From positions 1 to 48,959 of the forward strand of contig JANQSY010000099.1 of NCBI GenBank assembly GCA_028279065.1: a stretch of 48,959 nt of DNA, written 5' to 3'. This stretch comes from Cytophagales bacterium. GTDB lineage: Bacteria; Bacteroidota; Bacteroidia; Cytophagales; CCMP332. Made by a program: the position numbers and the translations under genes. The notes under the pieces were generated by a model. The model worked only from the letters and a program-made list of their open reading frames with translations, ran no database searches and was not told the DNA's origin. Below, in pieces: positions 34,398-45,779 of this stretch (positions within the stretch are counted from its first letter, which is position 1; each line of letters opens with the position of its first letter).

Positions 34398-37055
34398 TTG
34401 AGATCAAACTTCACCATATCTAGGAAGGGTATTCCTCCTCTTTTACCCCTTATTTTCTATGTCTTTTTGTTTTCATGTTCTTCAGAAAGGCAAAACGCTA
34501 TTTCTGTACTCTATCATAATACCACAGCTCACTACAATGCCTACTATATCGCCCGTGAAGAACTGAATGAAGCCGAATTCACGATCGCAAACAGCAGACA
34601 GGAAAACTACAATGAGATCCTTCCACTCTATCATCCCATGGATGAAGGGCTTTCAAGTCAGGTTAACAGCTATGCAGATGAAGCGATCGAAAAGGCATCT
34701 CTTCCCATTCAGTATCATAAGAATAGCAAATGGGTAGATAACTCTTATATTCTTATTGGCAGGGCGAGATTCTACAAGCGGGATTTTCCAAATGCTATTC
34801 AGACCTTCAAATATGTAAACTCGAAAAGTGAAGAATCCTATGAACGCCATGAAGCCCTCAGCTGGTTGTTGAGGTCTTATATAGAGGCTGGGGAACTGCA
34901 TAATGCCAGGGCGGTTTCAGATTTTCTTGCACTTGAGGGCCTCGACAAAAAAAATGTCAGCAAAGCTACTCTTGCCCGGGCCCACTTTTTCATTCAGATT
35001 GGAGACCTACAAGGCGCACTAGACAATATCGCACTTGGTGTAAAATACACCAAACCCAAAAAGGCAAGAGCAAGATTGCATTTTATCGCTGCCCAAATCG
35101 CGCAGGAAATCGGTATGGATGAGACTGCTGAGGAGCATTATAATTTGGCCTTGAAGAGTAATCCTTCCTACGAATTGGAGTTCTACTCCAAGCTATATCT
35201 TGCTCAGGTTTCAGGTCTGGATTCCGAGACCGACAAGCGGACCATTGAAAAATTCTTTCTGAAGCTCCTTAAGGATCAAAAAAACCGGGATTTCAGGGAT
35301 AAGATCTATTATGAGATGGCCAAGTTTGAGCTGAAACAAGACAATGTCAAAGGGGCAATCGGCTATCTGAATGAATCTATTAAGGCCAGTGTCTCAAACC
35401 AAAATCAAAAGGCTTATTCCTACTTGATGCTTGCTGAGATCTATTACGAAAGGTCACAGAAATATGAACTCTCAAAGGCATATTATGACTCGACCCTGCA
35501 GGTATTGGATGATGGTCATAAGGATTATGAGTTTATCAAAAAAAGGCATGAGATCCTGATCGACTTCACCACCCAGCTGAGCATAGTAAGAAACGAGGAT
35601 AGCCTTCAAAACCTGGCGAGGATGGATTCTACAGCTTTATTGGCCTACATCGATGAGATCATCGATAAGGAGGAGGAAGAAAAAAGGCTGGCACTAGAGT
35701 TACAGGAAAGGCAATCATCATTTGTCGACCCCTTTGACGAGGGTGGATTTACCGCAAGTGCTGAGAGCGGGGGAACATGGTACTTCTACAACCCATCTTC
35801 AATTAGTATTGGACGTACTGAATTCACAAGACTATGGGGAAACAGAAAGCTTGAAGACCATTGGAGGAGGTCGGATAAAGGAATTGTGAATGTGACCCCA
35901 CAGGAGTTGGCTGCAGAAACGATCCCTGGATTTGAGGATTATGATCCGGAGAAATACTCAAGCAAGGAAGAGTATGAAAGGGAAAAAAGGAGAGTTGAGC
36001 TACTGACCCCTATACCCTTCTCAGCAGAAGCCCTTTCAGCTTCCAACAAGCGTCTTGAAGATGCCTTATATCTTCTTGGTAAGATCTATAACCTTAGCCT
36101 GGAAGAATATGCCAATGCAACTGAGGTTTTCATCCGTTTGCTCGAAGATTTTCCCAATTCAGAGTACAAGCTTGAGGTGATGTACTTTCTGTATAGGATC
36201 AATATTGATATAGAACCATCAATCTCTGAGAAATACAAAAACATCCTACTAAATAATTATCCCAATTCGGTTTATGCCAAGTTGATCCTTAATCCTAATC
36301 ACCTGGAAGATTCCGAGGCAGAGGATCGATTGGCCAGTGAACTATACAACATTGCCTATACCGCATACCAGGCAAATAACCTTGAAGTGGCCAGAGGCAA
36401 CCTTCAATCACTAATAGCCAATTATCCTGAATCATCCTTTATAGATAAGGCCCAGCTATTGTTGGCCATGATAATCGGTAAATCAGGTGATTGGGTAGCC
36501 TATAAAAAAGCGCTGGAAGATTTCATAGCCACCTTCAAAGAAAGCGAGCTGCTTCCCTTTGCCAAAGAATTGCTGGCTACCTGCAATCAATATATGGAAG
36601 CTGCGGTAAGGGGTAGCCAACCCTTGGTATCTGAATCAACGGGGATGCCAGAGGACCCTGCAGATATTGAAGAAGAGGAGACCGGCCCAGGATACACCTA
36701 CAGACCCGATGCACCACATTTCTTCGTCTTGATCTTGTCAGGAGAAAAACTCAAGACGACCTCGGTAATGATTGAATTGTCAAAGTTCAATAACAAATAC
36801 TTCAAGGAGCTTGGCCTAAGCAGCAATCAATTGCTCTTGAAAGATGACAAGTTCCTTTTTTCAATTCGAGAGTTTGGAGATTCGAAAACCGCAATGAGGT
36901 ATTACGAAAAAGCCCAGGGAGCGGACTCGCCAGTAAAGAAATTCAAATCTAATTCCCCCAAATATTTTCTGATAAGCACGGAAAACTTTCCTTTATTTTA
37001 TGAGGCGAAGGATATTGGAGAGTATATGAGCTTCTTTAGGGAAAAGTACCAGTAA
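34398..37055 (+). CDS. porW: T9SS accessory lipoprotein PorW/SprE, TPR-rich
   Basis: The 885-residue protein has a hydrophobic start and lipobox-like FLFSCSS (Cys27), then the typical opening YHNTTAHYNAYYIAREEL. Tetratricopeptide-like helical repeats run through most of the length (clear around residues 90-380 and 540-720). A short Gly/Phe-rich WYFYNP segment near 460, a charged region and a C-terminal domain (about 765-885) with PHFFVLILSG complete it. This matches SprE of gliding bacteria and PorW of Porphyromonas, needed for T9SS function. The start is TTG at 34398. PBP1A follows after one base. Confidence 0.85.
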   Translation: MRSNFTISRKGIPPLLPLIFYVFLFSCSSERQNAISVLYHNTTAHYNAYYIAREELNEAEFTIANSRQENYNEILPLYHPMDEGLSSQVNSYADEAIEKASLPIQYHKNSKWVDNSYILIGRARFYKRDFPNAIQTFKYVNSKSEESYERHEALSWLLRSYIEAGELHNARAVSDFLALEGLDKKNVSKATLARAHFFIQIGDLQGALDNIALGVKYTKPKKARARLHFIAAQIAQEIGMDETAEEHYNLALKSNPSYELEFYSKLYLAQVSGLDSETDKRTIEKFFLKLLKDQKNRDFRDKIYYEMAKFELKQDNVKGAIGYLNESIKASVSNQNQKAYSYLMLAEIYYERSQKYELSKAYYDSTLQVLDDGHKDYEFIKKRHEILIDFTTQLSIVRNEDSLQNLARMDSTALLAYIDEIIDKEEEEKRLALELQERQSSFVDPFDEGGFTASAESGGTWYFYNPSSISIGRTEFTRLWGNRKLEDHWRRSDKGIVNVTPQELAAETIPGFEDYDPEKYSSKEEYEREKRRVELLTPIPFSAEALSASNKRLEDALYLLGKIYNLSLEEYANATEVFIRLLEDFPNSEYKLEVMYFLYRINIDIEPSISEKYKNILLNNYPNSVYAKLILNPNHLEDSEAEDRLASELYNIAYTAYQANNLEVARGNLQSLIANYPESSFIDKAQLLLAMIIGKSGDWVAYKKALEDFIATFKESELLPFAKELLATCNQYMEAAVRGSQPLVSESTGMPEDPADIEEEETGPGYTYRPDAPHFFVLILSGEKLKTTSVMIELSKFNNKYFKELGLSSNQLLLKDDKFLFSIREFGDSKTAMRYYEKAQGADSPVKKFKSNSPKYFLISTENFPLFYEAKDIGEYMSFFREKYQ

Positions 37056-37056
37056 A

Positions 37057-39324
37057 TTGAAAGGAACAAGCCGTAAGATCATTGTAATATCATGGTTGGT
37101 TTTGATCCTTTTTTCGGGATCAATCACTGCGTTCTTCTGGGCGGTATCAACGAATTTTTTGAACCTCTTCGGAACCATGCCTTCCCTTGAGATCCTTGAA
37201 AATCCTGAAAGCGAACTGGCTTCAGAGATCTATTTCGCAGATAACAGTCTAATCGGAAAATATTACCGCTACAACCGTCAGATAGCGGAATTTGAAGAAT
37301 TGTCTACGTCCTTGGTCCAGGCTTTGCTGGCTCAGGAGGACATAAGGTTCTATGAACATTCCGGTGTTGACCTCGAAGCCATCCTCCGCGCCATCTTCTT
37401 TCTGGGACAAAGGGGTGGTGGTAGCACATTGACCCAGCAGTTGGCAAAAAACCTATACAAGATCAGGGGAGACCATAATAATGGTACCCTTAGAAATGTA
37501 AGGTTCCTAAAATTCAATACCATTGTTTCCAAGGCCAAGGAAATGATAACCGCCATCAAGCTTGAACGAGCCTATACAAAGGAAGAGATACTCACAATGT
37601 ATTTAAACACTGTGGATTTCGGTGGGAACTCTTTTGGCATCAAGGTGGCCTCAAAGACCTTTTTCGGAGCAAGCACCGATACCCTAAAACCGGAAGAGGC
37701 TTCGGTATTGGTAGGGGTGTTAGGAGCAACCAATCGATTCAACCCCATCTATAACTATGAAAAATCCATAGCCCGTAGGAATCAAGTCCTGGGACAAATG
37801 CACAAGTATGAATTTTTAACTCAGGAGGAATATGATTCCTTGAAAGCCTTACCTATTAATCTGGATAACTACGGGGTGGAAAATCAAAACAAGGGACAGG
37901 CACCATATTTCAGGACAAGGGTAAAGGTGGAGTTGATGCATTGGTGCAAAAAGAATGGATATGACCTTTTCGCTGATGGCTTGCGGATCTACACTACCAT
38001 TGACCCAAGGCTTCAGGAAATGGCTGAAAAAGCTGTTTCGGAGTGGATGATGAAACTGCAGGACACATTCAATATCCATTGGAAGGGAAGAGAACCCTGG
38101 GTGGATGAAGAATTCAAACCGCTTAAAGGTTACATTCAAAATTCAATAAAAAGGACCCCTTACTATCGAAGTCTCGTACTTAAATATCCCGACCACCCAG
38201 ATTCGGTTGAGCACTTCATAAATAGGAAGAAAAAAATGAGAGTGTTCTCATGGAAAGGTGAGATCGATACGACATTCAGCACCCTGGATTCTCTTAAATA
38301 CTACAGACATTTTCTTCATACCGGGTTTATGGCAATGGACCCTTATAACGGACATGTCAAAGTTTGGGTGGGGGGAATTAATCATAAATACTTTAAGTTC
38401 GATCATGTGAAGCAAGGGAAGAGGCAACCAGGCTCAACCTTCAAGCCAATGGTATATACAGCGGCAATAGACAATGGTTTTTCACCCTGCTTTGAATTAG
38501 AAGATGCTCCGGTGACTTTCATTCTGCCAACCGGGGACAGTTATACACCCAAGAATGCAAATGGAAGGTTCTCCTATGAAAAAATGACCCTTCGTCAGGC
38601 TCTTGCCCGCTCTGTAAATTCAGCCACCGCAAACCTCCTAAAAAGAGTGGGTGTTGAGGTTGTGGTTGATTATGCAAGGAAACTTGGGGTAAAATCGCAT
38701 TTGGATGCCGTCCCATCACTCTGCCTGGGAACAAGCGATGTATCACTTTTCGAACTGATCGGCAGTTATTCAACTTTTGCAAATAAGGGCATCTGGGTTG
38801 AACCGTTTTATGTTTCAAGGATCGAGGATAAATATGGCAACCTGATCCGAGAGTTTGTTCCCAAAACCTCAGAAGCTCTTAATTCAGAGAGCGCAGAGAT
38901 CATGTTGTACATGCTCAGAGGATCAACAGAGCTTTCAGGGGGTACGGGGCTTGGTCTATACAGGTGGAACCTAAGAGAAGGGAATCAAATAGCAGCCAAA
39001 ACGGGAACGACCTCAAACTACTCCGATGGTTGGTTCATAGGAATTACTAAGGATCTGGTAGCAGGTGCCTGGGTAGGTGGGGAGGAAAGGTCCATCCATT
39101 TCAGGACCATTAGCCTTGGTTCAGGGGCCAGAATGGCAATGCCCATTTACGGAAGATTCCTCCAGCAAGCATATGCGGATTCGATTTACACCAAGGGTAA
39201 ACTTGGGATACCTGAAGCCTTGGAAACAGAATTGGATTGCAATAAATATCTGAATCCTAACGCTGACAGCCTGGAATTGATCGATCCATCACTATTCGAA
39301 AACCCCGATAAGGATATCTTTTAA
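37057..39324 (+). CDS. mrcA: Class A penicillin-binding protein (PBP1A type)
   Basis: This 755-residue bifunctional enzyme polymerises and cross-links peptidoglycan. It has an N-terminal membrane anchor (about 8-30) and a GT51 domain with catalytic Glu94 in QEDIRFYEHSG and the GGGSTLTQQLAKNL motif. The transpeptidase domain has the active-site Ser460 in STFK, the SVN motif at 519-521 and KTGT from Lys648. All catalytic motifs are intact. The start is TTG at 37057, directly after the PorW stop (TAAATTG); it gives the expected basic residues before the anchor. uvrC follows 9 bases downstream. Confidence 0.94.
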   Translation: MKGTSRKIIVISWLVLILFSGSITAFFWAVSTNFLNLFGTMPSLEILENPESELASEIYFADNSLIGKYYRYNRQIAEFEELSTSLVQALLAQEDIRFYEHSGVDLEAILRAIFFLGQRGGGSTLTQQLAKNLYKIRGDHNNGTLRNVRFLKFNTIVSKAKEMITAIKLERAYTKEEILTMYLNTVDFGGNSFGIKVASKTFFGASTDTLKPEEASVLVGVLGATNRFNPIYNYEKSIARRNQVLGQMHKYEFLTQEEYDSLKALPINLDNYGVENQNKGQAPYFRTRVKVELMHWCKKNGYDLFADGLRIYTTIDPRLQEMAEKAVSEWMMKLQDTFNIHWKGREPWVDEEFKPLKGYIQNSIKRTPYYRSLVLKYPDHPDSVEHFINRKKKMRVFSWKGEIDTTFSTLDSLKYYRHFLHTGFMAMDPYNGHVKVWVGGINHKYFKFDHVKQGKRQPGSTFKPMVYTAAIDNGFSPCFELEDAPVTFILPTGDSYTPKNANGRFSYEKMTLRQALARSVNSATANLLKRVGVEVVVDYARKLGVKSHLDAVPSLCLGTSDVSLFELIGSYSTFANKGIWVEPFYVSRIEDKYGNLIREFVPKTSEALNSESAEIMLYMLRGSTELSGGTGLGLYRWNLREGNQIAAKTGTTSNYSDGWFIGITKDLVAGAWVGGEERSIHFRTISLGSGARMAMPIYGRFLQQAYADSIYTKGKLGIPEALETELDCNKYLNPNADSLELIDPSLFENPDKDIF

Positions 39325-41139: not shown

Positions 41140-42102
41140 TTAGTAGGACCATAGCTCATGCTCATACTGCATAAGCTTCATTTCCCACCACTCAGAACCG
41201 TAAAGAGTCCTTTTTGGGTCCCCTCCAAAAATATCGGCTATGTGAGCGTTATCGGTGTTTCCAACCTTAATAATCCTACTAGCAAACAACCTTAAGTCAA
41301 AAGCATGTTGAAGATTAAGGTGAGCTGCTGAGTTTTCAGGGTTATACCAAATTGCTTCTGGATTGTCCTTGAAAAGTTTTTCAACCAGTTCCTTATAAGA
41401 AAAGACCGCAACATCAAAATCGACCCCATCAGGTCTTTCTGTTCCATCAACCACGATCTTGACAGTTAGGATATCCCAATACATTCTGGACCTTTCCTTG
41501 TCGAAGATCGCATCTTCTTGTAGCTCCAGAACATACAATTGGTTTGGAAGATACATTTGGTCTTCTGATGGCCCGGTTTGTTCCTCGGCAGCTTCTTCCT
41601 CTGCTCCCAGCCCTTCGTCTCCACCACCGGAATCATCCCCTCCTCCACTATCATCTGTGGCCCAGTCATCTCCTCCACCACCCCAGTCATCGCCACCAGA
41701 GCCCCAATCATCATCACCACCTGATCCCCACTCATCATCACCTTCTCCACCTTCTTCCTCTTCTTCTTCCATAAGGAATGGGTCAGTCATGTTTTCCAAC
41801 AACTTTTCCATTGACATTGGAGTCCCAAGAGTATCCGTCTCATATGGAGTGATGATGCCTTGTTTTGCAGCATCAAGGATCATTTTTGTGATCTGTCTTC
41901 CATTTGAGAAGAAGGAAGCATTTTGCTTTTCCTTGAGGTTCATCCTTCTCCAAACCCTCTTCTTGAACATAATATCAGAAGCATGAATAGGTCTTACGGA
42001 GAGATCGTTAAAACCTTCATTAAGGTTTTCCTGGGCATAGCCAGCATTCAAACCACCGAAAAAGCAAATTGCAACGGACGCAACTAATATTAATGCTCTC
42101 AT
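41140..42102 (-). CDS. gldN: Gliding/T9SS protein GldN with acidic Asp/Gly/Trp-rich insertion
   Basis: GldN (PorN) binds GldK and forms part of the periplasmic T9SS ring. The 320-residue protein has a signal peptide (cleavage near GYAQ), then the conserved N-domain (VRPIHASDIMFKKRVWRRMNL) and C-domain (YLPNQLYVLELQEDAIFDKERSRMYWDI to EWWEMKLMQYEHELWSY). Between them, residues 112-180 are a low-complexity stretch: a run of Glu, then repeats of GSGGDDDW/GGGGDDW type and a Glu/Ala tail. This insert is not part of the GldN core I know. It is the last gene of gldKLMN, 6 bases after gldM, with a terminator downstream. Confidence 0.93.
   Translation of the reverse strand: MRALILVASVAICFFGGLNAGYAQENLNEGFNDLSVRPIHASDIMFKKRVWRRMNLKEKQNASFFSNGRQITKMILDAAKQGIITPYETDTLGTPMSMEKLLENMTDPFLMEEEEEEGGEGDDEWGSGGDDDWGSGGDDWGGGGDDWATDDSGGGDDSGGGDEGLGAEEEAAEEQTGPSEDQMYLPNQLYVLELQEDAIFDKERSRMYWDILTVKIVVDGTERPDGVDFDVAVFSYKELVEKLFKDNPEAIWYNPENSAAHLNLQHAFDLRLFASRIIKVGNTDNAHIADIFGGDPKRTLYGSEWWEMKLMQYEHELWSY
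41563..41769 (-). repeat. Low-complexity Asp/Gly/Glu repeat region inside gldN
   Basis: The 69 codons 112-180 of gldN are almost only Glu, Asp, Gly, Ser, Trp and Ala. Units resembling GSGGDDDW recur about four times. On the plus strand this reads as repeated (t/c)catc(a/c)cc-type sequence, which may be prone to slippage and length change. Confidence 0.8.
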
Positions 42103-42108
42103 TATTCT

Positions 42109-43710
42109 TTAGTTAAGAGGAATTGTAATGATCCTTGAAGTAACGGGAATATCAACGTTCTCGTTCCTGTTCTGGAAATTCCTTCTAATTACTTGTTTCA
42201 CTTCAATAACGTAACGATCACCTGGTTTAGCCTGCGCAGCAAACTGTGTAAGGCTTAGATCTGGTGATTTAAAAGTTTGTCTTTTGATAGCCCTTTTCCC
42301 CCTGGCAAGAGTAACATCAACCTCAACAGCTCTATACCTGGCGTCTTTAGGAAGGAAGGAAGCGAAGTCCTTGTCAGCCTGAGCCTGGATCTCAATTTTT
42401 CTTGGCCCAGGAACGGCAACACCATCCTTGATATTTACAGGCCTTTTATTTGAAATAGCCACAAGATTTGGCAATGGGACACTCCTTACTTTAAAAGTTT
42501 GGTCTCCTACCAAGTCTCCACTACTATATACAGTGAGCTTTACATTCCTTGCTGAAGGAACAATGGTTACGATTCCTTTCTTAGAACCGGAAATTGCCGA
42601 ACCGCCAGTCGCTTTGAATGAAGGATTATAAGAAGTACCCAAAGCAGGGACCTGAACATCCAATTCATTTCCACAATTCCTATACAAGGCTTGTACAGAA
42701 GCTGACTGGATCTGAATTACGGGACGAGCAACAAAATACTCCTCTTCAACAACGAAGGTGGTATCACCCCCGGTTGGTTTTGGAAGAGTAATTTCACCTT
42801 TCCAGGTTTTCTTGGCCAATCCTTCTTTGTCATAGGTTCCGGGAGTGGCCTTGAATTTGATGGTTCCAATTCCATTTTCAACCGGTACATCTTTACCTGC
42901 AAATTTCATTGTAGGTTTTACAGCAGAAGAGAAGGCAGCAATGAACATCTCAGCCTCGTAATTGGCACCAGCAGCTACAATCTTTGATTGAGGCCTTACC
43001 ATGGCCTGGGTAACATCAAACTTGAAATCCGCAGCACCTACTTCAGCAGCAAGTTCAGAAAGGATCTCAGATTCGATCTGTACGATCCGGCTTTGCATTT
43101 CAGAAAGAACAGCCATGGCCGCAACCATTGGGGTGTTCTCAAAAGTTAACTGGGCAAAGTCCTTTTCCTTTTGTTCAGGGATGTTCTTGAAAAGAGGATC
43201 ATCCTTTCCATCAAGTGCGAAGGGCGGGTAGTCTTTGGGATTGTGAGCAAGTTCTTCCACTTCATCAACATATTCATTCAGCTTGTCTCTAAGCTCGTAC
43301 CCCTTTCCTTGCTTATTTGGTCCAATGAACATTACCTGAACAACGTCTTCATTTTTGGCACCTAAATAAAAACCGTGTTCATCACGTCCACCAGATTGCT
43401 TAACAAGATCTTCCTGCAACCCATTTACATAATCAAGGAGGTTTTTGGTATGCTCACGGACCATGGTGGCCTTATTCATGATATCAACCTCAGTATCCTT
43501 GTTTCCCCTTTCCTCAACCTTTGCCTTGATATTAGCTGTAACGTTTACATTCCTCTCATGGGTCTCTTCGACAACATAGTCCATTTGATCCTCAAGGAAC
43601 TTAAACTTATACATGACGGAACTACTCACCTGGAGGGCCAATAAGGCCGTAAGTACCAGGTACATCATCCCGATCATCTTCTGCCTGGGTGTCTCTTTTG
43701 CTCCTGCCAT
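42109..43710 (-). CDS. gldM: Gliding/T9SS motor protein GldM
   Basis: GldM (PorM) is the inner-membrane protein whose periplasmic dimer transmits energy from the GldL motor to the outer-membrane ring. The 533-residue sequence starts AGAKETPRQKMIGMMYLVLTALL; Arg9 is the conserved residue that pairs with the GldL glutamate, and one membrane helix follows (about 12-32). The periplasmic part has the helical D1 region and the later beta domains D2-D4 (from about 225). The ATG lies 34 bases after the gldL stop. Confidence 0.96.
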   Translation of the reverse strand: MAGAKETPRQKMIGMMYLVLTALLALQVSSSVMYKFKFLEDQMDYVVEETHERNVNVTANIKAKVEERGNKDTEVDIMNKATMVREHTKNLLDYVNGLQEDLVKQSGGRDEHGFYLGAKNEDVVQVMFIGPNKQGKGYELRDKLNEYVDEVEELAHNPKDYPPFALDGKDDPLFKNIPEQKEKDFAQLTFENTPMVAAMAVLSEMQSRIVQIESEILSELAAEVGAADFKFDVTQAMVRPQSKIVAAGANYEAEMFIAAFSSAVKPTMKFAGKDVPVENGIGTIKFKATPGTYDKEGLAKKTWKGEITLPKPTGGDTTFVVEEEYFVARPVIQIQSASVQALYRNCGNELDVQVPALGTSYNPSFKATGGSAISGSKKGIVTIVPSARNVKLTVYSSGDLVGDQTFKVRSVPLPNLVAISNKRPVNIKDGVAVPGPRKIEIQAQADKDFASFLPKDARYRAVEVDVTLARGKRAIKRQTFKSPDLSLTQFAAQAKPGDRYVIEVKQVIRRNFQNRNENVDIPVTSRIITIPLN

Positions 43711-43744: not shown

Positions 43745-44554
43745 TTACGATTTCATCGCAGACAACATGTTGCCGTAGATGTTATTCAAGTTAGACAGGT
43801 TACCGGTCAACCTTGAAAGCTCCTGACGGAAAGTTTCAGTCTCGTTAGAGGCCTCAGAAAGGTTGTCCAGTGCAGTGGACAGATTACTATAAAACTTATT
43901 CAATGCTTTTAGATGGCTATTGGCATCCTGAAGTTCCATTTCATAAACAGAATTCAGAGCTCCCAGATTCTTGGTCATGCTCTGAATTGCTTCGTGATAT
44001 TCAGTAGCGTCAGAACTGGCGTTTACCAAAGTAGATAGGGCATCGGCAGTTGAAGCATAAGAATTGTTCAACTCTCCCAGTTTAGAGGCAGCCACTCTCG
44101 CATTTTCAGCATAATCGTTGGAAGCAACAGCTGCGTCAGAAAGGTCAGCCATGTTCCCAACATTATCATTAAGCCTCGAGAATCCAGCGCCTAATCTTTC
44201 AAGAAGTTCTTCATTAATATTCGCATCTTCCAGCATATCATCCAGTTTTTCAACCGCATTCTCTGCTGTAGCAGGCTTATTTCCGAACTCATCTTCTTCT
44301 TCAAAATCATCGCTTTCTTCTTTCAGCTCAGGATAAACCTTTGTCCAGTCAATTTCCTGATGCTGGGGTTCAAAAGCAGAAAGGAAGAAAATTACAGCCT
44401 CCGTTGACATTCCAACTCCAAGCATAAATCCTGCTCCGGGAATGTGGAGAATTTTAAACATCGCTCCCAAGATCACAATCGCCGCTCCAATACCGTAGAT
44501 CATCGGCATGATCTTTTTATAGAAGACTTCAACAAAACCACCTTTGTGTGCCAT
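43745..44554 (-). CDS. gldL: Gliding/T9SS motor protein GldL
   Basis: GldL (PorL) is the proton-driven motor partner of GldM. Two N-terminal membrane helices are seen (about 15-36 and 40-60); the second carries Glu52 in GMSTEAVIFFLSAFEPQ, the likely proton-coupling residue. The remaining 200 residues are acidic and helical, with heptad-like stretches (about 105-265), and form the cytoplasmic part. Length (269) is in the family range. Confidence 0.95.
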   Translation of the reverse strand: MAHKGGFVEVFYKKIMPMIYGIGAAIVILGAMFKILHIPGAGFMLGVGMSTEAVIFFLSAFEPQHQEIDWTKVYPELKEESDDFEEEDEFGNKPATAENAVEKLDDMLEDANINEELLERLGAGFSRLNDNVGNMADLSDAAVASNDYAENARVAASKLGELNNSYASTADALSTLVNASSDATEYHEAIQSMTKNLGALNSVYEMELQDANSHLKALNKFYSNLSTALDNLSEASNETETFRQELSRLTGNLSNLNNIYGNMLSAMKS

Positions 44555-44603: not shown

Positions 44604-45629
44604 TTAAAATTCAGCTCCGGATGACCTGCCTAAGAAAGTCATTGCACAACGGAAGCCAATATACGATGTGGCGCTATCCTTATATTCAAAGGTTCTTGTT
44701 CCTGTTTGAAGGAAATAGGCGACATCTTTCCAGGATCCACCCCTAATTACTTTTCGGGGTTCATTTTCATCAAAATAAGTAGGGTTCAGGTCCCATACTA
44801 TTGGCATGGCTGCTTCAAAGAACGCATCCTCGCACCACTCACTTACATTACCAGCCATATCATAGATTCCATAATCATTAGCGAAATAAGAAGCTACAGG
44901 TGCAGTATATGCGAATCCATCATCATAGTAGTTACCTCTGCCAGGTTTGAAATTGGCCAAAGCACAACCTCTTCCATTCCTGATATATGGATTACCCCAA
45001 GGGAACATAGCCATATCCCTTCCGCCCCTTGATGCATATTCCCATTCAGCTTCAGAAGGAAGTCGGAAATTCGGCATTTTGAAGAGACCGTTATCCTCTC
45101 TCCATTGGTTGAGGTATTTCGTTCTCCAATCACAAAAGTATTGAGCACCTTCCCAGCTTACCCCGATCAATGGATACTCATCATAGGCAGGATGATAGAA
45201 ATAATACTCAGTCAATGGATCTCCCATATGGTGAGTAAAATCCCTGATCCAAACAGTGGTATCGGGATAAAGTATCTCATAAATGAAATCCTCACCCAAA
45301 ATGTCCAGGGAATCCTCCATGATGGCATAGATGAATTGCCTGTACTCATTGTTGGTGATCTCAGTGTCATCTATATAGAATCCACCGATGGTAACCTGCT
45401 TGTTCAGATTAACAAGAGTGTTGGGAATATCTTCATCGGCCTGTCCCATGTGAAATGTTCCAGGGGGGCAGTAAACCATTCCATAAGGAGTGATCATCTG
45501 CCATGAATCACGGTCGGGAACCCCAACCAGTTGTCCATTGTCATCGGTGGTTCCGAGCTTGTTACAGCCAGCAAAAATCGCCGACACCAATACTATCCCG
45601 AATATGTGAAGGAAAGGTGTTTTCTTCAT
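44604..45629 (-). CDS. gldK: Gliding/T9SS lipoprotein GldK
   Basis: GldK (PorK) is an outer-membrane lipoprotein that builds the periplasmic ring with GldN. From ATG 45629 the 341-residue protein has a signal peptide with lipobox AIFAGC (Cys22). The body is an FGE-sulfatase/SUMF1-like fold: YCPPGTFHMG, FYIDDTEITNNEYRQF, FRLPSEAEWEYASRGG, YDMAGNVSEW and KVIRGGSW. A TTG at 45653 would add eight residues before the signal peptide and was not chosen. It leads the gldKLMN operon, 151 bases after the PorP/SprF gene. Confidence 0.95.
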   Translation of the reverse strand: MKKTPFLHIFGIVLVSAIFAGCNKLGTTDDNGQLVGVPDRDSWQMITPYGMVYCPPGTFHMGQADEDIPNTLVNLNKQVTIGGFYIDDTEITNNEYRQFIYAIMEDSLDILGEDFIYEILYPDTTVWIRDFTHHMGDPLTEYYFYHPAYDEYPLIGVSWEGAQYFCDWRTKYLNQWREDNGLFKMPNFRLPSEAEWEYASRGGRDMAMFPWGNPYIRNGRGCALANFKPGRGNYYDDGFAYTAPVASYFANDYGIYDMAGNVSEWCEDAFFEAAMPIVWDLNPTYFDENEPRKVIRGGSWKDVAYFLQTGTRTFEYKDSATSYIGFRCAMTFLGRSSGAEF

Positions 45630-45779
45630 AGCGGCAAAAACCTGTTCAATCAAAAAGCAATTCTTTAACTATTCTACTAACTCAAATTAACGATAAAAAT
45701 TGTGGACTGAGCAGCCTCTAAAGTACTTTGAATCAAAAAAAATTCAAAATCCATTAAAAAGGCATGTTTGGCAATCCTT

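Follow-up and report, generated by a model that had tools for sequence, protein, structure and literature searches.

A predicted disordered, acidic Trp-bearing loop in a Cytophagales GldN as a candidate docking arm for the GldM tip

We found that the GldN protein encoded in the window, the whole 48,959-nucleotide stretch of DNA analysed here, carries a long acidic loop with several motifs of the D-D-x-W-G type. We tentatively read this loop as an arm for docking, disordered and multivalent, that projects from the periplasmic side of the GldK-GldN ring or track, where it would most likely steer or dock the basic D4 tip of GldM. The GldM tip is the best-supported partner, contact with glycan is the main rival, and a receptor shared with a giant, apparently exported protein comes third. 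The excerpts available from PMC12635249 and PMC9127263 treat two questions as unsettled: the way in which the GldM/PorM arm engages the GldKN ring, and whether this ring bears on peptidoglycan. The natural series seen at this one site (a 13-aa loop, an acidic Trp arm and a CBM5/12 module) would make both questions testable, and D-D-x-W-G offers a search handle for more envelope partners.

Results and discussion

The gldN gene and its product

The genes gldK, gldL, gldM and gldN follow one another in this order on the minus strand, with TIGR03525, TIGR03513 and TIGR03517 above their cut-offs. Upstream lies a PorP/SprF gene; convergent with the cluster are sprE/porW, a PBP1A-type gene and uvrC. 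The positions used below are as follows.

34398..37055, plus strand: sprE/porW
41140..42102, minus strand: gldN/porN, 320 aa, stop included (open reading frame, family models, fold)
42109..43710, minus strand: gldM (TIGR03517 above cut-off)
42112..42441, minus strand: last 110 residues of GldM, the D4 tip and proposed contact of the loop (TIGR03517, charge contrasts)
43745..44554, minus strand: gldL (family model above cut-off)
44604..45653, minus strand: gldK (family model above cut-off)

The PBP1A-type gene occupies 37057-39324 on the plus strand, between sprE and uvrC.

The gldN product matched Pfam GldN (PF19841) with 210.7 bits (cut-off 23) and TIGR03523 with 154.2 bits (cut-off 85.9). 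Its AlphaFold model superposed on PorN (9mzu_B) with a Z-score of 20.7 and an rmsd of 2.4 Å over 206 aligned residues. A PDB search with the lone sequence gave only chance matches to S2 proteins, and PorN was reached by profile. Outside the loop, family scores, fold and gene order all liken the protein to GldN/PorN, the T9SS ring subunit (PDB 9mzu, 9ots, 9myj, 7pvh). Of the 390 genomes of the order that were sampled, 375 had a GldN; the one other genome of the window's genus in the set (G001), rated 93% complete, gave no GldN match, perhaps owing to a gap in its assembly. Weak GldN-like matches, some of them paired, were also seen in frames of about 470-680 aa beside an ordinary GldN (e.g. G053:C33, G140:C541, G087:C99, G092:C24 and G080:C31), and these frames perhaps represent another protein family, of greater length, that contains GldN-like domains.

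The acidic loop is predicted to be disordered

41563..41769, minus strand: acidic Asp/Gly/Trp loop, residues 112-180 (sequence; AlphaFold pLDDT; PorN much shorter here)
41725..41739, minus strand: motif DDEWG, residues 122-126 (sequence and DNA pattern match)
41701..41715, minus strand: motif DDDWG, residues 130-134 (sequence and DNA pattern match)
41680..41691, minus strand: motif DDWG, residues 138-141 (sequence)
41659..41670, minus strand: degenerate motif DDWA, residues 145-148 (sequence)
41500..41532, minus strand: strand 191-201 after the loop, running toward the turn that contacts PorK in PorN (DSSP; PorN alignment; excerpt of PMC12421860)

The first-pass annotation had described a low-complexity block of 69 residues, acidic and rich in Asp, Gly and Trp, with a Glu run, and this block was confirmed at residues 112-180. 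Six Glu are followed by DDEWG, DDDWG, DDWG and DDWA units and then by a Gly/Asp/Glu tail. Residues 112-177 (66 aa) comprise 22 Gly, 14 Glu, 14 Asp and 4 Trp with a net charge of -28, and the 83-aa segment between our alignment anchors carries -31. In ten-residue blocks, the mean pLDDT was 91-98 for residues 31-110 and 181-320 and 49-59 for residues 121-170; residues 112-180 are predicted to be disordered in an otherwise PorN-like fold. The charge, the Trp content and the low pLDDT thus agree with the earlier description of a flexible, highly negative, Trp-bearing loop. The underlying DNA, which had also been called repetitive, indeed contains period-21/24 arrays of 2.3-2.9 copies with a 75-87% match, and because the repeat units use differing Asp, Gly and Ser codons the loop is not a fresh perfect expansion. 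Relatives carry loops of this kind and the reading frame is open, which makes an artefact of assembly unlikely, with the repeat number taken as assembled.

The loop site probably faces away from PorK

Profile alignment placed about 26 residues of P. gingivalis PorN (GIYYQPST...DIPSAE) at the loop site; this segment has no Asp/Trp motif and D-D-x-W-G is absent from the aligned PorN, whereas the window protein has its long acidic Trp loop there. Strand 191-201 of the window protein ends at the turn aligned with PorN FTPTNSD. In the cryo-EM structure, PorN residues F156-D162 touch PorK (excerpt of PMC12421860), and our PorN numbering fits P158, T159, N160, S161, D162 and W154 as given there. Because the post-loop strand ends at the turn that contacts PorK, the loop should leave the end of the sheet that is far from PorK, and we infer from this alignment that it lies on the side of the GldK-GldN ring that faces the periplasm. 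PorM D4 has been modelled on that side with weak confidence metrics, where it occupies a cleft between copies of PorN (excerpt of PMC12635249), and on the flexible PorN loops 4 and 6 (excerpt of PMC12421860), one of which possibly corresponds to the window loop.

A Trp-centred motif recurs in the loops of relatives

Loops were taken from 197 open reading frames out of 198 sources (L001 and L002 duplicate the window and were excluded, L195 and L196 were missed, L199 yielded two), with heavy sampling of families f10, f12 and f19. Motif statistics used 151 rows of the order (145 non-redundant) and 39 others (32 non-redundant), with seven named-genome rows excluded; in the family counts, and in the charge controls where they refer to the order, L195 (f31) and L196 (f30) default to f19, so that the f19 denominator of 42 is slightly too large. 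Alignment with the GldN of relatives showed that the loop varies in length between species, the segment between two fixed anchors measuring 13-124 aa within the order and 13-125 aa over all 197 frames. What had been called an insertion is a real loop, but it is not private to this genome: it is one form of an order-wide variable loop in which D-D-x-W-G recurs.

We counted 72 copies of DD.WG in 47 of the 145 non-redundant order loops, about 100-fold above composition-preserving shuffles (mean 0.6 and maximum 6 over 500 shuffles, which do not correct for kinship), while the rest of the loop could barely be aligned between relatives. Among the 179 Trp residues in order loops, 146 were followed by Gly and 127 had Asp two positions before. 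The looser pattern D[DE].?W occurred in 10 of 21 families and in none of the 32 non-redundant loops sampled outside the order; strict DD.WG occurred in 7 of 21 families, most strongly in f10 (28/28 loops) and f12 (12/23). No Trp was present in any loop read from seven families (f5-f9, f14, f22). The nearest relative, L010, has DPNDPF units where the window protein has its Trp units, similar Phe units occur in f8 loops L117 and L129, and a clade of 14 rows within f19 has a loop of just 13 aa; these exceptions count against the docking reading. Since the shuffles are uncorrected for kinship, this distribution may stem either from a single ancient feature that was lost in places or from gains on several occasions.

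Because relatives carry the like motif at this site, and one related group a CBM-type module, the arm probably serves for docking and is not filler, and we suggest that selection keeps D-D-x-W-G for binding. DPF/DPW endocytic motifs and SSB tails are acidic-aromatic short linear motifs in disordered regions. Like them, the GldN loop repeats an aromatic residue beside Asp in disorder, although compartment and proteins differ and the likeness is one of resemblance only; by this analogy, a multivalent use of the loop motifs is plausible. Among the published papers listed in literature searches, we noticed no account of the GldN acidic loop, of a CBM in GldN or of D-D-x-W-G.

Loop charge and GldM tip charge run in opposite directions

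GldM tips (C-terminal 110 residues) were taken from the same loci as the loops, 176 of 181 rows with a tip of at least 100 residues were kept, and phylogenetically independent contrasts were computed on a FastTree tree of about 200 GldN core columns. The window GldM tip has a net charge of +8, at the 93rd percentile. Net charges of loop and tip showed a modest negative correlation (r -0.29 over 175 contrasts, with a sign-flip p of 2e-4; signed-rank -0.32), also without the ten largest products (-0.17, p 4e-4), and the contrasts had opposite signs in 77 of 126 cases (p 0.016); this comparison is one of about 30 related tests. By r, the controls were near zero for GldM -220..-110 (-0.007) and -330..-220 (-0.02), and +0.11 for the GldN core. 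By sign count the controls were less clean: GldM -220..-110 shared the sign of the loop in only 35 of 90 contrasts (p 0.045) and so leaned the opposite way too, as did GldM -160..-110 with 30 of 90 (p 0.002), for which r was -0.17 (p 0.11); GldM -220..-165 ran with the loop (r +0.26, p 0.036). In the 41 genomes shared with the giant protein described below, tip and loop gave r -0.32 (p 0.009), with the same sign in 12 of 35 contrasts (p 0.09). The charge of SprE 30-700 went with that of the GldN loop (+0.53, 30 genomes). Our reading of these sequence comparisons is that loop and tip charges may compensate each other amid exported proteins that acidify together. Single columns of the GldM tip were too weak to use, one of 106 (window N421) reaching a family-wise p of 0.037.

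The opposite charge trends make contact with the motor tip somewhat better supported than the earlier suggestion that the loop adjusts the ring, and GldM D4 is our candidate for its partner. In the mechanism that we propose, an acidic disordered arm would leave the periplasm-facing end of GldN, distal to PorK/GldK, bearing several copies of the D-D-x-W-G short linear motif. With about 33 subunits per ring (a figure from P. gingivalis PorKN papers), the arms would form a dense, multivalent acidic surface along which the D4 tip could step from one GldN to the next, docked or steered by the arms, with the Trp motifs acting as short-lived stickers for the moving tip. Loop Trp count did not track D4 charge (r of contrasts 0.05), which indicates that the motif as such has no tie to GldM; similar motifs in other apparently exported proteins suggest that the partner is a common one in the envelope and not GldM.

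A CBM5/12-like module occupies the same site in one clade

In 15 rows (L009, L067, L126, L134, L141, L203-L210, L215, L216) the GldN loop resembles a CBM5/12 module. The Pfam model CBM_5_12 (PF02839, cut-off 26.2) was passed by L009 (29.3 bits) and L067 (27.0); L126 (25.1) and L134 (13.2) fell below it and L141 gave no match. When the loops were searched alone, with L216 left out as a near-copy of L215, 11 of 14 matched CBM_5_12 at an E-value of 0.05 or better (best 3.8e-8). A deacetylase and chitinase binding domains (2rts, 4e-9; 2d49, 4e-6; 1ed7, 0.0016) were matched in the PDB by a profile of these 14 loops, and some phage tail proteins were matched weakly. In a quick tree of the loop-free core (61 rows) the 15 rows formed one clade with SH-aLRT 100, indicating one origin; the clade joins Marivirga rows with D-D-x-W loops at a support of only 84. 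The module thus takes the place of the loop in the GldN of several relatives, L009, L067 and L126 among them, whereas the window loop is predicted to be disordered and the window GldN has no PF02839 match (Pfam at E 0.001 found GldN alone).

The module lends indirect support to a contact with peptidoglycan or another glycan, which the first-pass annotation had listed among its suggestions: the moving ring or track would bear on peptidoglycan, or avoid sticking to it, with Trp stacking on sugars. GldN has been proposed as a peptidoglycan bushing in a review (excerpt of PMC9127263). However, a strongly acidic loop would be an odd binder of anionic peptidoglycan, three of the 14 CBM-like loops fall short of E 0.05, and sugar binding in GldN is putative, given that the module also weakly matches phage tail proteins. 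We regard glycan contact by the window loop as possible but somewhat unlikely.

A giant, apparently exported protein shares the motif

DNA patterns for D-D-x-W-G in five genomes and for D-D-G-W-G in twelve genomes led to a giant protein, two examples of which are the following.

L229:4784-11230, minus strand: giant apparently exported protein of the window's own genome (G000:C34)
L230:906-7376, plus strand: giant apparently exported protein of G002

These two proteins are 2148-2156 aa long and have a long, repeat-rich acidic C-terminal part. In the window's genome, 13 D-D-x-W-G DNA matches were found, five in the giant-protein gene and two in gldN. The 21 D-D-G-W-G matches in twelve genomes comprised 12 in gldN, three in the giant protein, two in other exported-looking proteins (L239, L242) and four in short or apparently cytoplasmic frames. 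With an intact frame, the giant protein measures about 1500-2150 aa, and it has an acidic, often Trp-rich loop in its N-terminal third (without Trp in four f14 and two f8 sequences read). Scans of two examples gave no Pfam match, a TolA-like match below threshold and a chance NCBIfam match being all that appeared, and one example gave no PDB sequence match. Residues 250-1000 were predicted with confidence (pLDDT 89.6) and are similar to Lpt beta-folds. The best structural match was a modelled LptD (9a39; Z-score 11.5, 154 aligned residues, 4.2 Å), followed by the LptDEM cryo-EM structure 9kn3 (9.5), with LptA and LptC rows and a winged helix (4hbl_B, Z-score 9.2) interspersed and with mixed Foldseek probabilities; the protein is perhaps a lipid bridge that spans the periplasm.

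The giant protein was found in 52 of 75 genomes. Within f19 it occurs in each of the 15 tested genomes whose GldN has a long loop or a CBM, and in none of four genomes of the short-loop clade (three loops of 13 aa; G035 placed by its 13-aa genus mates). A simple link is contradicted by the f14 genomes with 17-aa GldN loops, all four of which have it, and by 7 of 13 genomes of the order that lack a GldN match yet have it; on the latter ground it was rejected as a strict T9SS partner. It is missing from 10 tested genomes with GldN.

A common envelope receptor might read D-D-x-W-G in several exported proteins, including GldN and the giant Lpt-like protein. This would fit the acidic Trp-rich loop of the giant protein in several of the same lineages, the covariation of the two loop charges (r of contrasts +0.53, p 0.004, 48 genomes), the changes in Trp count, which had the same sign in 21 of 28 contrasts (p 0.013; rho 0.45 over 48 genomes with phylogeny ignored), and further apparently exported carriers (L232, L233, L239, L242). 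However, the Trp contrasts themselves correlated at 0.11 (p 0.86), the sign test on loop charge gave 26 of 43 (p 0.22), four of the nine D-D-G-W-G matches outside gldN in the twelve genomes fell in short or apparently cytoplasmic frames, and the two proteins occur apart, as counted above. We consider such a shared receptor fairly unlikely. A broader picture, in which an exchangeable adaptor arm of the T9SS ring or gliding track combines a D-D-x-W-G envelope docking code, shared with the giant protein, with a charge tuned to the GldM tip, and in which one clade swapped the arm for a chitin-binding-type module and so made its ring a circle of glycan grippers in direct touch with peptidoglycan, is in our estimate unlikely.

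The signal peptides of these non-GldN carriers were judged by eye. Two of the carriers lie in one genome.

L232:1078-1878, plus strand: apparently exported protein with motif tail (G320)
L233:2249-3544, minus strand: apparently exported protein with motif tail (G320)

Their C-terminal tails are near-identical (ADDGWGSGGSGW and ADDGWGSPAGSGW), as if the motif doubled as a C-terminal tag. L239 (G292) and L242 (G053) each encode a further apparently exported protein, which has a single DDGWG inside or close to an acidic stretch.

Linker, calcium and SprE alternatives

The loop could also be an unconstrained acidic linker at a site that tolerates insertions, its acidity mirroring a generally acidic exported proteome. 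The length range within the order, the low-complexity DNA and the parallel charges of SprE 30-700 and the giant-protein loop would be expected of such a linker; the Trp-centred order of the motif, far in excess of shuffles, and the opposite charge trend of the GldM tip argue against it, and we hold it to be quite unlikely. Calcium binding, the remaining early suggestion, gained no support and is highly improbable: the loop is acidic and a Cytophaga hutchinsonii study (PMC7906972) ties, in its title, T9SS components to calcium acquisition, but Pfam at E 0.001 finds GldN alone with no loop match to RTX, EF-hand or TSP3 (degenerate repeats could escape these models), and D-D-x-W-G is unlike the spacing of RTX and EF-hand repeats.

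SprE/PorW was considered alongside the GldM tip, the preferred partner. P. gingivalis PorW binds PorN (excerpt of PMC8754138). We searched 75 genomes, 71 of which had a SprE match, and used 30 loci. The C-terminal domain of SprE was rejected as the reader of the motif, because f10 has DD.WG in all of its loops, yet the alignment of SprE from f10 genomes G381 and G235 stops at query residue 728-732 of 885. The charge of the SprE tail was not opposed to that of the loop (r +0.19, p 0.25). From about residue 730 onward, SprE/PorW was unmatched in the f10, f14, f5, f15 and f18 genomes read (loci L305-L334), and in six f12 genomes the SprE frame is longer, at 1026-1116 aa.
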